From positions 1 through 8,413 of the forward strand of contig CAINOM010000468.1 in the NCBI GenBank assembly GCA_903851455.1: DNA of 8,413 nucleotides. The letters run 5' to 3'. A program made the translations under genes and the position numbers. The notes beneath the pieces are model-generated. The model worked only from the letters and a program-made list of their open reading frames with translations, was not told the origin of the DNA and made no database searches. This DNA comes from an uncultured Bacteroidota bacterium (lineage in GTDB: Bacteria > Bacteroidota > Bacteroidia > Chitinophagales > Chitinophagaceae). Within the stretch, counting starts at the first letter, position 1. Every line of letters begins with the position of its first letter. Positions 44 through 4,324 of the stretch are shown piece after piece.

Positions 44-2182
44 TTAATGCACTACAACTATTTTTTTGGTTGTTTTGTGGCCGTTGGATAATAGTTCAAC
101 AATATAGATGCCCGGGTCAATATCTGCGAGGGAAATGGATGTGACCAAATGTGGCATTGCGGCTTGTATGTTTTTAACGACCTGGCCCAAAATATTGACA
201 AGCCGGACTTCATTCAGTTCGTTATTATAGGGGTCAACATAGATCATGTTATTTGCCGGATTTGGATACACGTAGATCTCATTAGCGTTAAAATTCATCA
301 CGCCTCCGACATTTACTACTATAGGATTTGTCATCCAGGCCGATCCTGTGACGTAGTAACCGCCCGTGTCGGTATACTGATGTTTCAATATCAGAATATA
401 TTTACCGGGCGGCACTGCAAGGTTACTGTCGGTAAAAGTGCACTCATATTTATCATATGGATTAATATAAAGGCCTCGTTTTTGACCGATGTCGTATATC
501 TGCACACCTGTATTGATATCATATAACCCAATATCGAGGTTGCCGGTGAACCGTACCTGTCCAATATCGGCTATATGCACATTGATGCTCGCCGGGCTAC
601 CATGCGCTAACGTATCCTCAATGATCCGGATTGGCTGATACAGCATTATATCGGTATCATCAGCAATACCCATTACGGTATAGTTGATATAGTCCCCGTT
701 GTTTGCCACGGGAATCCATTGGTCGGTGCCTGTGCTCCTGTGTAAAACGCGAATGGAATAAATGCCGCTGATCAGATCGTACATTCCGCTGGTAGCAAAT
801 GTCAACGTGGATGTGCTATCGCCCACATTTATCTTTTGCCCGTTTATTGTTTGCAGTGTTCCCAAAATCTTGCCTGAGCTATCATATACCTGCGCGCAAA
901 AATCGCCACTGAATTGCGTTCCTCCTTTGTTTACGATTTTCGTTTTTACTGAAAATGGACCTCCGTATCTTACGGGAGAACTTGATGTTGTAAGGCAATT
1001 CTGCAATTGCAAGCTGCCCGTATTGTCGGGGAAAGCATCCGGCTCAATGCCGATTATCGCTTCATGCTCCTGACTGAAACCTGCCGGTGTTTTTAAAGTG
1101 AAATAGCCATTGCTCATTCCACCCCATCCCCAATTGAAATGAAAAAAGCTATCGGTCTCATATCCATCACATACCCAGCAATGGCCCTCCACATTATTGA
1201 AACCGGCATAGATTACAGGCCGTGAAGCATCGAGTTCTGCCACCAGCATTTGCTCCCACTTGGTGGTAGTCATACTATCCATCAGGTCATCGCCCGACCT
1301 GGCAACGGATGTCAAAGACGGCTTATAATGAAAATAGGTTTGTAGCGCGTAAGAAGTGATGTTCGTTTGCATGCTGTCGCCGGGTATCACCCATGCCCCG
1401 CTGCCATCAACACCGTATTGCATATCTACACTTACTCCGGCGCTATACATCAGCGTTGCAACGGCAGTGTCAGGGCCGCCTAAGCTATCCCGCATTGCAT
1501 CCCACTGGTATTTTGTTGCGCCAAAGTTTACTGTTTGAGGGCCGTAAAGAACGTGCTGGTACGTATGCGACCCGCAGCCCACCACGGGCCAGTTCCAGTA
1601 TTTCATTACCTGGGCCATCGCTGTTGCTACGCACCCGGTAACTGCGTGGGCGCGCTGCAGCACATCATAGGGGCACAGATCGTTAAAATACGGGGACTGA
1701 TTCCATTTTGTGGTAAGCAACGGGCCAACACTCGTGGTTTTTGCAACCCGAGAGCCTTTCCTGCTGATCAGCTCATCCCATTTTTCTTTTGTTTCCGCAG
1801 CGGGTGTTACGTTGTTTTGTATTGCATAATTTATCTCCTGCTGATATCCATTCATCCAGTAAACAACGTTCCTGTTCTGGCTATCATAATTAAAAACTGT
1901 TTCCCTGGAATAACCCAGGATCGGCTGTACCCTGTCATCCGCTGAAACTATTACGAAACCAGTTGGATTTACATTGAAGACATAAAAGCTGGTCGCGTCA
2001 ATGCCGTTGATAGCAGAAGTTGGACGGTATACGGTGGTAGCATCAGAGACAGGTCCCATCCCGATAGAAGTTAAAAAGGCAATGCCCACGAGCTTCGCAG
2101 TTGCCTCATCAATGGCTTTGCCATAAGATGCATTACTCGCAAGGTTTATCAATAATGCCAATAAACAGATTCTGCTTTTCAT
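44..2182 (-). CDS. Secreted C10 (streptopain-like) cysteine protease with T9SS sorting domain
   Basis: This is a 712-residue secreted papain-fold cysteine protease of the SpeB/streptopain family (MEROPS C10). Residues 1-21 look like a signal peptide. A prodomain covers about 23-150 and contains GFVIVSADDRVQPILGYS (75-92), typical of C10 propeptides. The catalytic domain runs about 152-384. It has WNQ at 160-162 (oxyanion-hole Gln), the nucleophile Cys184 in TGCVATAMAQVMKYWNWP, the catalytic His334 in GHCWVCDG, and NWGWGG at 350-355. All expected catalytic residues are present, so it should be active after propeptide removal. Residues about 385-630 look like two beta-sandwich/Ig-like modules. 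Residues 635-712 form a T9SS type A domain (YPNP at 639-642, then GIYIVELL and a Lys-rich end). It is the last gene of the cluster, 12 bp after the M43-like gene, so co-transcription and possibly translational coupling are likely. The ATG is the only start that gives a full signal peptide, and no Shine-Dalgarno is visible. Substrate is unknown. Confidence 0.93.
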   Translation of the reverse strand: MKSRICLLALLINLASNASYGKAIDEATAKLVGIAFLTSIGMGPVSDATTVYRPTSAINGIDATSFYVFNVNPTGFVIVSADDRVQPILGYSRETVFNYDSQNRNVVYWMNGYQQEINYAIQNNVTPAAETKEKWDELISRKGSRVAKTTSVGPLLTTKWNQSPYFNDLCPYDVLQRAHAVTGCVATAMAQVMKYWNWPVVGCGSHTYQHVLYGPQTVNFGATKYQWDAMRDSLGGPDTAVATLMYSAGVSVDMQYGVDGSGAWVIPGDSMQTNITSYALQTYFHYKPSLTSVARSGDDLMDSMTTTKWEQMLVAELDASRPVIYAGFNNVEGHCWVCDGYETDSFFHFNWGWGGMSNGYFTLKTPAGFSQEHEAIIGIEPDAFPDNTGSLQLQNCLTTSSSPVRYGGPFSVKTKIVNKGGTQFSGDFCAQVYDSSGKILGTLQTINGQKINVGDSTSTLTFATSGMYDLISGIYSIRVLHRSTGTDQWIPVANNGDYINYTVMGIADDTDIMLYQPIRIIEDTLAHGSPASINVHIADIGQVRFTGNLDIGLYDINTGVQIYDIGQKRGLYINPYDKYECTFTDSNLAVPPGKYILILKHQYTDTGGYYVTGSAWMTNPIVVNVGGVMNFNANEIYVYPNPANNMIYVDPYNNELNEVRLVNILGQVVKNIQAAMPHLVTSISLADIDPGIYIVELLSNGHKTTKKIVVVH

Positions 2183-2184
2183 AA

Positions 2185-2196
2185 AACAACGTTGTT
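2185..2196. repeat. Palindrome AACAACGTTGTT between the M43-like and C10 genes
   Basis: A perfect 12-bp palindrome fills nearly the whole 12-bp gap and overlaps the stop codon of the M43-like gene, just before the C10 start. It has no loop and no U-tract, so it is not a terminator. It may be chance or may affect translational coupling. Confidence 0.25.
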
Positions 2197-4324
2197 ACTG
2201 TACTACCAGCTTTTCGGTCTGGTTAATTCTTGCTGTAATAATGTGAACAAGATACAGGCCTATTGACGGAAGTACGGTTGCCGGTATTTCAATTTTTTCG
2301 GTAGTATTGTTTGTGTTTTCGTGCATTTTATATACACACTTTCCGGTAATATCGGTTACGATTATCGTCACGTCTTGTATAGCTACCTTGTCTTTAACAA
2401 TAGCATAGGCGCCTGCCTGTGTTGGGTTTGGCACCAGAGACAGGCCCTCAGGCATGTGTTCTGTCATCGCAATACTTTCGGGAAATCCACTAAAATTGAA
2501 ATGGTCGAGATAGAAATTGTTCCCCATTGAAATTCCTGTAGAATCTGCTCCCGGATGATAACGAAAGCGAAAGAGGGAATATGCCGTTCGTGCCGCGGCA
2601 GGTAGAGAAATATGGTGTGCCATCCAGTCGCCTGGGGATAAGGGCGCATAAGGATCGCTAACTCCATTTTTATTAAATAATGAGTCCCGTCGTAAGGTTT
2701 CTAACGTATGCCATGAATAGTTATGATCTGCTGAATATTGAACTTCGAGACTGTCGCCGGAGTGGAGGATATTCAGGAAACGAGTAGCGCCCGACGTCAT
2801 AAAATTCAGGAAGCACGAATCTCCAAAGCCCGTAAGATCAAAGGCGGGTGTAAAAATATCATCAACATCTCCTAAGGCCATGCCTGTAGTATTTTCAGGA
2901 AAGGTGCGGACATCGTAGCCCGTATATTCGAGGCCGGTGTTGTCAAAATAGCCGTTGTTGATGAGCTGCCATTTAAAACCATTGCCGTAGTAATTAAACA
3001 TCGGCCATTTGCCCATGCCAACGCTCGGGACGAATTCCTGCACGTAGCCAAGCGCATTGGTGGCGATAGAGTCCGCAATGAAAAGCGCATTAGAATCGGT
3101 AAGTGTAGTTGTGCCGGTATTATTTCCGGTAACGGCAAGAGAAACTGTTACCCACCCCGGCTCGTGGAACGCATTTAAAACCGCTGATAAAGCAGTACTT
3201 GTCGGAACGTGAGCACTGTTGGAAAATGCCCAGGATGCGGCAACTATTGTATCGTTCCAGCTTTTATTAACAAATCCTACGTTTTGCCCCTGGCAATAAA
3301 AATGCCGGGGCACTGTGCTGCCGATTGACGGGCTGCCAACGCTGAAATCAGCAACCGGCCACAAATCGTGCACTGGCTGGTTCACACCGGTAACGGCGGA
3401 AGTATATGGGGTAACCAGGCTATCTCGTTTCCCGTAATCCAATTGTAAAACGTTCTGCATATATTGGCCCTGACCATAGGTAAACATAATACCGCACGGC
3501 CCCGGGCTAGACATAATATTTTGAACGTTGGGAGTGTCACAGACGGTATCATAGATGTTAGTACAGCTATAGAAATCGTCATTGCAAGGCGGCGTATCAG
3601 GAATCCCGTCATTGTCACTGCAGGTGGCCGGGCCAAATGCATAGCAAGGATATGGTAGGTTCAGATACCTTGCAAAATAAAGCGCAATATAGCCACCGGG
3701 ATAGGGTGCAAAATAGCCGTAATTTAAAACCAATCCGTCATAATACGGACTGTATGCTGCCATGGTTGGTGTGTAATAGATGGAGGCAACCGGTGAACTT
3801 GAATTTGACGTCCAGATGTTTAAATACCGCTCCTGTGGCCACTGAGATACTTTCACCTGGTCTGAGCCGGCGTATGTGAGGTAAGTAAAAATATGCTCCA
3901 CGCCCTTCGTCGGATTCCCGCGTGGGTCGATGGTTGCCAACTTAAAGGAAATTTTCGTGTTGGCCGCCACCGCTTTGAATTTGGCAATGATATTTACAGT
4001 ATCCGGGTTGGTTTTCAGAAAAAAACTATTAACACTATCTAATATCTTGTATATCGTAGTGTCTGGTATCAGTTCTACACCATAATTATGCAGCACATGC
4101 ACCACCACAGGTATGGTATAAAGCACGGTGCCGCCGCTAGTCGTTCTGTCTACGTGATTCCAGTCTATTTTGTCCAGTTGCCTCAGTACTTGTTCGGTGA
4201 GCTGTTGTTTGGCGTACTCACTTGCAGGGTTAGATGCTTGTTCCGCCTCATGAGGGGGTGTATTTTGAGCAATAGACAGCTGTGCCATTACACACCCGAT
4301 AAATAAGAGTAGAGCACACTTCAT
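2195..4324 (-). CDS. Secreted M43-like (cytophagalysin/pappalysin) pseudoprotease with T9SS sorting domain
   Basis: The 709-residue product starts with a signal peptide (about 1-20, ending SIAQ). Residues about 68-305 match the M43 metalloprotease fold: IPVVVHVLHN (71-80), ISFKLATIDPRGNPTKGVE (125-143), YLNIWTSN (167-174), YDGLVLNYGYF (195-205), DNDGIPDTP (237-245), CDTPNVQNIMSSPGPCGIMF (262-281, the Met-turn region). Where active M43 enzymes carry HExxHxxNLxH, this protein has LYFARYLNLPY (215-225). All three zinc-binding His and the catalytic Glu are replaced, while the surrounding YLNLP is kept. It is therefore predicted not to bind zinc at this site or to cleave peptides. A PKD-like domain follows (about 323-420), then a jelly-roll/MAM-like beta domain (about 428-615), and a T9SS type A domain (about 627-709, VPNP at 631-634). 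The frame is intact throughout, so this is a pseudoenzyme rather than a pseudogene. It sits 71 bp after the preceding gene and 12 bp before the C10 protease. A binding, scaffold or regulatory role is inferred, not shown. Confidence 0.88.
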   Translation of the reverse strand: MKCALLLFIGCVMAQLSIAQNTPPHEAEQASNPASEYAKQQLTEQVLRQLDKIDWNHVDRTTSGGTVLYTIPVVVHVLHNYGVELIPDTTIYKILDSVNSFFLKTNPDTVNIIAKFKAVAANTKISFKLATIDPRGNPTKGVEHIFTYLTYAGSDQVKVSQWPQERYLNIWTSNSSSPVASIYYTPTMAAYSPYYDGLVLNYGYFAPYPGGYIALYFARYLNLPYPCYAFGPATCSDNDGIPDTPPCNDDFYSCTNIYDTVCDTPNVQNIMSSPGPCGIMFTYGQGQYMQNVLQLDYGKRDSLVTPYTSAVTGVNQPVHDLWPVADFSVGSPSIGSTVPRHFYCQGQNVGFVNKSWNDTIVAASWAFSNSAHVPTSTALSAVLNAFHEPGWVTVSLAVTGNNTGTTTLTDSNALFIADSIATNALGYVQEFVPSVGMGKWPMFNYYGNGFKWQLINNGYFDNTGLEYTGYDVRTFPENTTGMALGDVDDIFTPAFDLTGFGDSCFLNFMTSGATRFLNILHSGDSLEVQYSADHNYSWHTLETLRRDSLFNKNGVSDPYAPLSPGDWMAHHISLPAAARTAYSLFRFRYHPGADSTGISMGNNFYLDHFNFSGFPESIAMTEHMPEGLSLVPNPTQAGAYAIVKDKVAIQDVTIIVTDITGKCVYKMHENTNNTTEKIEIPATVLPSIGLYLVHIITARINQTEKLVVQ

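Follow-up and report, generated by a model that had tools for sequence, protein, structure and literature searches.

The window analysed here, an 8,413-nucleotide stretch of DNA (contig CAINOM010000468.1 of assembly GCA_903851455.1, from an uncultured member of the Chitinophagaceae), encodes on its minus strand a relative of the M43 (pappalysin) metalloproteases in which the zinc motif has been erased. On balance the evidence leans towards a conserved lineage of M43 relatives without a zinc site, likely dead as proteases and probably acting as secreted binding or scaffold partners of the protein encoded next. The pseudoenzyme component of this reading is well supported by sequence comparison, as catalytic residues are lost throughout a conserved lineage under purifying selection (measured in pairs of other members rather than in the window protein's own), from which inactivity would follow. 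The initial annotation of this DNA had proposed a selected pseudoenzyme in place of a decaying gene, and that proposal is borne out by the motif-less clade, by selection in the measurable pairs and by a promirolysin-like predicted fold.

An M43-like protein without its zinc site

The gene and the positions discussed below are as follows.
2195..4324, minus strand: M43 (pappalysin)-like pseudoprotease, 709 amino acids, from the open reading frame call with profile and structure searches
3650..3682, minus strand: LYFARYLNLPY replacing HExxHxxNLxH, residues 215-225
3644..3646, minus strand: codon 227, clade-specific Cys at the position of mirolysin Trp236
3584..3586, minus strand: codon 247, clade-specific Cys at the position of mirolysin Gln255
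4223..4264, minus strand: residues 21-34, the cysteine-switch stretch of motif-bearing relatives, with no Cys in the window protein
3509..3523, minus strand: Met-turn QNIMS, residues 268-272, with Met271 kept and the switch Tyr missing

Codons 215-225 (3682-3650) read LYFARYLNLPY, a segment that aligns with the zinc motifs of mirolysin and ulilysin when the protein is compared with solved structures by phmmer (mirolysin, E 3.2e-21). The three His and the catalytic Glu are all replaced, exactly where the initial annotation had placed the erasure, and the motif HExxHxx[N/G]xxH with its catalytic Glu is absent from the window protein. The annotation had also described YLNLP, DNDGIPDTP and the Met-turn as kept; both motifs and the Met are indeed retained, but the Met-turn Tyr is gone. 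From end to end the protein comprises a signal-like N-terminus, a former pro-segment, the M43 domain, a PKD-like domain, a reelin/MAM-like jelly roll and the type IX secretion system (T9SS) tail already noticed in the initial annotation, which scores above the cut-offs of both Pfam (PF18962, 31.2 bits against 27) and NCBIfam (TIGR04183, 30 against 23) and suggests export by the type IX route. The Pfam family PF05572 itself is matched at 15.4 bits, below its gathering cut-off of 23, and six other motif-less members that were scanned pass it (P0122, P0068, P0057, P0053, P0026 and P0030). Structure prediction returned the fold of promirolysin, a pappalysin fold, as had been anticipated, and in this model the pro-segment is predicted to remain docked.

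A motif-less lineage and its remodelling

Two protein searches, with the best 120 matches taken from each, gave 186 different proteins including that of the window. Among them 149 contain HE..H..xx.H and are called motif-bearing here, a term that denotes the presence of the motif and does not equate to demonstrated activity. The 37 others comprise 22 members of a main clade that includes the window protein, six deeper members (P0122, P0024, P0025, P0027, P0057 and P0068), four fragments that extend into the motif, three that stop short of it, and two separate losses. Named records of the motif-less clade are labelled Bacteroidetes or Flavipsychrobacter, a genus of the Chitinophagaceae. The two further zinc-motif losses, P0045 (HHFGH) and P0050 (DRETGK), fall within motif-bearing groups; the cysteine switch is still found in P0045 and the Met-turn Tyr in P0050.

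A tree was built from the M43 domain alone, with the motif, the gained cysteines and a variable stretch removed (72 rows, including 42 of the 149 motif-bearing ones; supports here and below are SH-aLRT values from a short search). In it 28 motif-less rows form one clade (94) nested among motif-bearing rows (98); 26 of the 28, termed advanced, group at 100, with P0057 and P0068 as their sister pair (93). The whole-protein tree, built without the motif columns on 84 rows (the 30 motif-less proteins longer than 600 amino acids and 54 of the 149 motif-bearing ones, the seven fragments being excluded), requires three changes of motif state. Absence of the motif at one and the same position throughout a clade of proteins from other sources is explained by neither chance nor sequencing error, and the existence of this clade also rules out decay or an isolated recent loss. 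HExxH-retaining close orthologs, which the initial annotation had named as a sign of such a loss, were not found among the matches listed, where the nearest motif-bearing proteins are about 40% identical to the window protein. When 396 genomes sampled from the order were searched at 1e-215, only the window's own genome was returned, but six other holders of the same genus are missing from this result, so the sample evidently lacks them and says little on rarity. With P0068 as query, the sole match at 1e-150 in 60 genomes of the order was a motif-bearing M43 paralog in the window's genome, on contig C640, with an intact HEMGHIMNLSH.

Further parts of the zinc machinery are gone as well, losses that are additional to those recognised in the initial annotation. 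In the mirolysin zymogen the zinc is bound by Cys23, and Tyr286 serves as the tyrosine switch of the enzyme (PMC6949598). The window protein has no Cys after its signal-like segment, and thus no counterpart of Cys23. Of the motif-bearing rows that can be scored for the cysteine switch, 139 of 144 have it; of the main-clade rows, none of 16 does (six more were not scorable, nor were the deeper members P0027, P0057 and P0068 with their short N-termini). The Tyr corresponding to Tyr286 is found in 141/149 motif-bearing proteins, 0/22 main-clade and 0/6 deeper members, and the Met-turn Met (Met271 in the window protein) in 21/22 main-clade rows. Given the roles of Cys23 and Tyr286 in mirolysin, it appears that zinc-dependent parts, useless without the metal, were lost together. 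The stretch from Cys262 to Asn269 has also contracted, to 6-7 residues in the advanced rows as against 27 in P0057 and P0068 and a median of 28 in motif-bearing proteins. At the three ligand positions, which vary freely, each of the 26 advanced rows has at most one His. P0068 keeps all three His with Gly in place of Glu, and P0045 has His in place of Glu; these states make it plausible that the catalytic Glu was lost before the zinc ligands.

Against these losses stand two gains. Within the M43 domain, Cys227 and Cys247 are the only conserved His, Asp, Glu or Cys residues absent from motif-bearing relatives, and no conserved His, Asp or Glu has been gained in residues 30-316 of the motif-less lineage, which speaks against a new metal site of the kind that the initial annotation had raised as a counter-indication. 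Both cysteines are present in 28 of 30 advanced rows and fragments, the exceptions being P0015 (Tyr at 227) and P0024 (a Cys adjoining that column), and they never occur together in the 149 motif-bearing proteins, one of which has Cys247 alone; P0057 and P0068 have Trp at 227 and Thr at 247. In the profile alignment the two cysteines face mirolysin Trp236 and Gln255, whose backbone carbonyls bind the calcium Ca997 (PMC6949598). Proximity of the two positions is thus expected, and it is reasonable to predict from the alignment that a Cys227-Cys247 disulfide replaces the first calcium site. At the second calcium site the counterparts of mirolysin Asp247 and Thr252, Asp239 and Thr244, do not vary, and in the 228-234 loop Asn is present in 146/149 motif-bearing as opposed to 8/22 main-clade rows and Asp in 43/149 as opposed to 4/22.

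Selection on these genes was estimated from the ratio of nonsynonymous to synonymous substitution rates (dN/dS). For L006-L011, the pair of loci with the lowest synonymous divergence (dS 1.1-1.6, near saturation), dN/dS is 0.063 by NG86 and 0.100 by YN00, and for its M43 domain 0.067 or 0.113. The pairs L006-L010 and L010-L011 give 0.07-0.09 (NG86) at dS 2.7-3.1, with 0.09-0.18 for the M43 domain. Across residues 195-230 (33-37 codons) values range from 0.07 to 0.36 where measurable, looser than elsewhere and not above 1. Conservation relative to the protein mean was compared between the main clade and 128 of the 149 motif-bearing rows. The main clade shows stronger conservation of the former pro-helix (residues 35-52; 0.91 vs 0.59) and weaker conservation of the switch segment (0.38 vs 0.70), the cleft rim (0.35 vs 0.68) and the motif helix (0.85 vs 1.30); the upper cleft rim (198-210), which also carries insertions and deletions, is the least conserved of the regions compared. 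This pattern argues against a role exerted through the old cleft and for a pro-segment retained as part of the fold.

The dead domain has probably also travelled. P0024 and P0068 are 92% identical in their C-terminal halves and 43% identical in their M43 domains, likely the result of domain exchange, one being of the advanced dead type and the other retaining the three His without the Glu. In a tree of C-terminal halves the 22 main-clade rows stay together (99), a second group (100) unites P0024, P0025, P0027, P0057 and P0068, and P0122 joins the motif-bearing P0059 (85). By these groupings the dead domain sits on three different C-terminal backbones, of which the third is modestly supported.

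Neighbouring genes and the probable role

The surrounding genes in the window are these.
44..2182, minus strand: C10 (streptopain-like) protease with an I69 pro-domain and a T9SS tail, behind a 12-nucleotide spacer after the pseudoprotease gene and likely its partner within one operon in this genome
4396-6000 and 6072-7649, minus strand: two related T9SS-tailed proteins, 534 and 525 amino acids
start 7804, plus strand: a gene that we take to be ComEC-like

Apart from their tails, the 534- and 525-residue proteins match no Pfam family above its cut-off. The tail of the 525-residue protein lies just below the Pfam cut-off and above that of NCBIfam, and this upstream protein has no match among solved structures at E up to 1.

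In all seven main-clade loci compared (the window and L006-L011) the pseudoprotease gene is followed on the same strand, after a spacer of 8-14 nucleotides, by another gene (11-17 nucleotides if counted from where the stop codon begins; the starts in L007 and L010 are taken as ATG and not as the upstream TTG). In the window this is the intact C10 gene that the initial annotation had reported, which keeps GCVATA and GHCWV when aligned to streptopain. A conserved non-HExxH clade beside C10 genes had been suggested, and although the clade is real the pairing is not general: C10 follows in the window and L009 (2/7), while a YCF48/BNR propeller follows in L006, L007, L008, L010 and L011 (5/7). The L006 propeller matches PF14870 at 82 bits, and the other four are 66-83% identical to it. 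The window, L006, L010 and L011 have in common an upstream T9SS-tailed gene family (two copies in the window and one in each of the others, with one extra gene in L011) and, farther out on that side, a ComEC-like gene that is divergent; despite these common upstream genes the partner is C10 in the window and a propeller in the other three. Across 60 genomes a propeller of at least 66% identity occurs in five, all of which are among the seven that have the pseudoprotease, and two weaker homologues (53% and 36%) occur without it; the probability of this co-occurrence by chance is 4e-6, or 6e-5 within the genus, in a calculation that ignores relatedness. The nearest match of the window C10 in these genomes is that of L009 (54%), other whole-length matches reaching at most 45% and partial ones up to 50%, whereas the window pseudoprotease groups with propeller-bearing relatives (94, whole-protein tree). 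This discordance implies at least two changes of partner on the tree, or sorting from ancestors with both genes.

Other arrangements were seen at related loci. A secreted-looking gene of about 160 amino acids, alike by eye, adjoins C10 in nine of 11 other listed C10 loci (L115-L120 and L122-L124); there is none at L114, the piece of L121 is cut short, and the gene is missing behind the L009 C10. Two copies that were scanned have no Pfam match, and it is possibly a dedicated C10 partner. At L012:9866-16851 a member of the dead lineage lies directly before a tandem pair of motif-bearing M43 genes, and tandem M43 genes occur in several other loci as well, for example L025.

By sequence, the lineage has shed the zinc motif, the catalytic Glu, the Met-turn Tyr and, in every scorable row, the cysteine switch, gained two cysteines and kept most of the M43 domain together with its C-terminal domains. 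Under the favoured proposal, the secreted product would associate physically with whatever is encoded downstream (C10 in the window, the propeller in five relatives) and might fold, anchor or present it at the cell surface. A fuller scenario is offered tentatively, in which a self-activating zinc protease was rebuilt in a coordinated manner: zinc and both switches would have been removed, a disulfide would stand in for the calcium clasp, the pro-segment would have become permanent, and the resulting module would have been swapped among backbones and placed in tight operons with exchangeable secreted partners, either C10 or a beta-propeller.

Several observations weigh against the favoured proposal. 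The partnership is read from the order of genes in seven genomes, all from a single genus and six carrying a metagenome-assembled label, and as the kind of partner changes, the same interface would need to fit two folds that are unrelated. The T9SS tail of the L006 propeller, at 25.0 bits, is below the Pfam cut-off of 27; the divergences of pseudoprotease and propeller across five loci are not clearly correlated (Pearson 0.90, Spearman 0.50, p 0.14); and the L012 gene, deeper and outside the main clade, has two motif-bearing M43 genes behind it and no such partner. The tree of C-terminal halves splits the motif-less rows and needs five changes. The poor conservation of the old cleft rim could equally mean that the cleft is simply idle. 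The initial annotation had named dN/dS near 1 as a sign against its reading, and the measurable pairs give values far lower, but for every pair with the window protein whole-gene dS is saturated, and nearly all comparisons with it yield either a saturated dS or no estimate.

The most serious competitor, a less likely one in our judgement, is a surface adhesin whose function resides in the C-terminal PKD-like and reelin/MAM/gingipain-adhesin-like domains, the dead M43 domain serving as a spacer or an additional binding module that has no particular link with the gene behind it. Since the C-terminal region is common to motif-bearing relatives, such a role leaves the conservation of the dead domain unexplained, as it does the tight two-gene order. 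That the protein serves specifically to inhibit or regulate the C10 protease next to it, as the initial annotation had proposed, is unlikely. C10 does lie directly behind the gene in the window and L009, the L009 C10 being the nearest match of the window C10 in the 60 genomes, and the L009 enzyme lacks the small neighbour described above; against this, the propeller and not C10 prevails in the main clade, none of the 11 other C10 loci shows an M43-like gene in the 3-5 kb covered, and the C10 protease already has its own I69 pro-domain. General pairing with C10 is not supported by the same count of main-clade loci. Use of the old cleft to bind peptides or substrates without cutting them, as a decoy, is likewise improbable: the cleft-bearing domain is predicted to fold intact, but its rim at 198-210 is poorly conserved and the ex-catalytic positions vary freely, though variable binding loops could give the same picture. 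It is very improbable that the protein is still an enzyme, whether through a different metal site or by using Cys227 for nucleophilic attack. Cys227 is new, conserved and only two residues past the former third ligand, yet the gained residues of that type are two cysteines that come paired, as expected for a disulfide. Finally, the window's genome is a fragmented assembly (70.4% complete, 760 contigs), which might suggest an artefact or a decaying gene, but the open frame, the conserved clade and purifying selection in the measurable pairs leave this hardly credible.

Relation to known proteases and pseudoproteases

Mirolysin of Tannerella forsythia (PDB 6r7u, 6r7v and 6r7w) is among the nearest known counterparts of the window protein, which differs from it in having neither the zinc ligands, the Glu, the switch Cys nor the Met-turn Tyr, and in carrying Cys where the first calcium site of mirolysin has Trp236 and Gln255. 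Motif-bearing T9SS-tailed M43 relatives, including the C640 paralog, resemble it in domain order and tail at about 35-43% identity; unlike it, they carry HExxHxxxxxH, nearly all have both switches, and their stretch before the Met-turn is longer (median 28 against 6). Because several motif-less members are precomputed as, or score as, Peptidase_M43, a PF05572 match in Bacteroidota does not reveal protease status unless the motif is inspected. The sister pair P0057 and P0068, in which some older features survive (a long stretch ahead of the Met-turn, Trp227 and Thr247), could reveal the order in which the machinery was lost.

The neighbouring protein compares with streptopain and interpain as a complete-looking C10 protease with an I69 pro-domain. 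Known C10 enzymes are paired with small Spi-type inhibitors and are not known to be paired with an M43-like protein. In the literature searched, most subscription papers being outside its scope, no pappalysin pseudoprotease lineage with a probable calcium-to-disulfide swap was found, and in the main text of the pseudoprotease review PMC11266112 the terms 'pappalysin', 'M43' and 'PAPP' occur 0 times. The predicted exchange of a metal clasp for a disulfide is a specific swap, and a bacterial pappalysin lineage makes it testable. Metzincin pseudoproteases are known chiefly from animals. The lineage belongs to a known kind, the pseudoproteases, and other members of zinc families, such as the inactive ADAMs and FtsHi, have likewise kept the fold, lost the zinc motif and taken a non-catalytic role.
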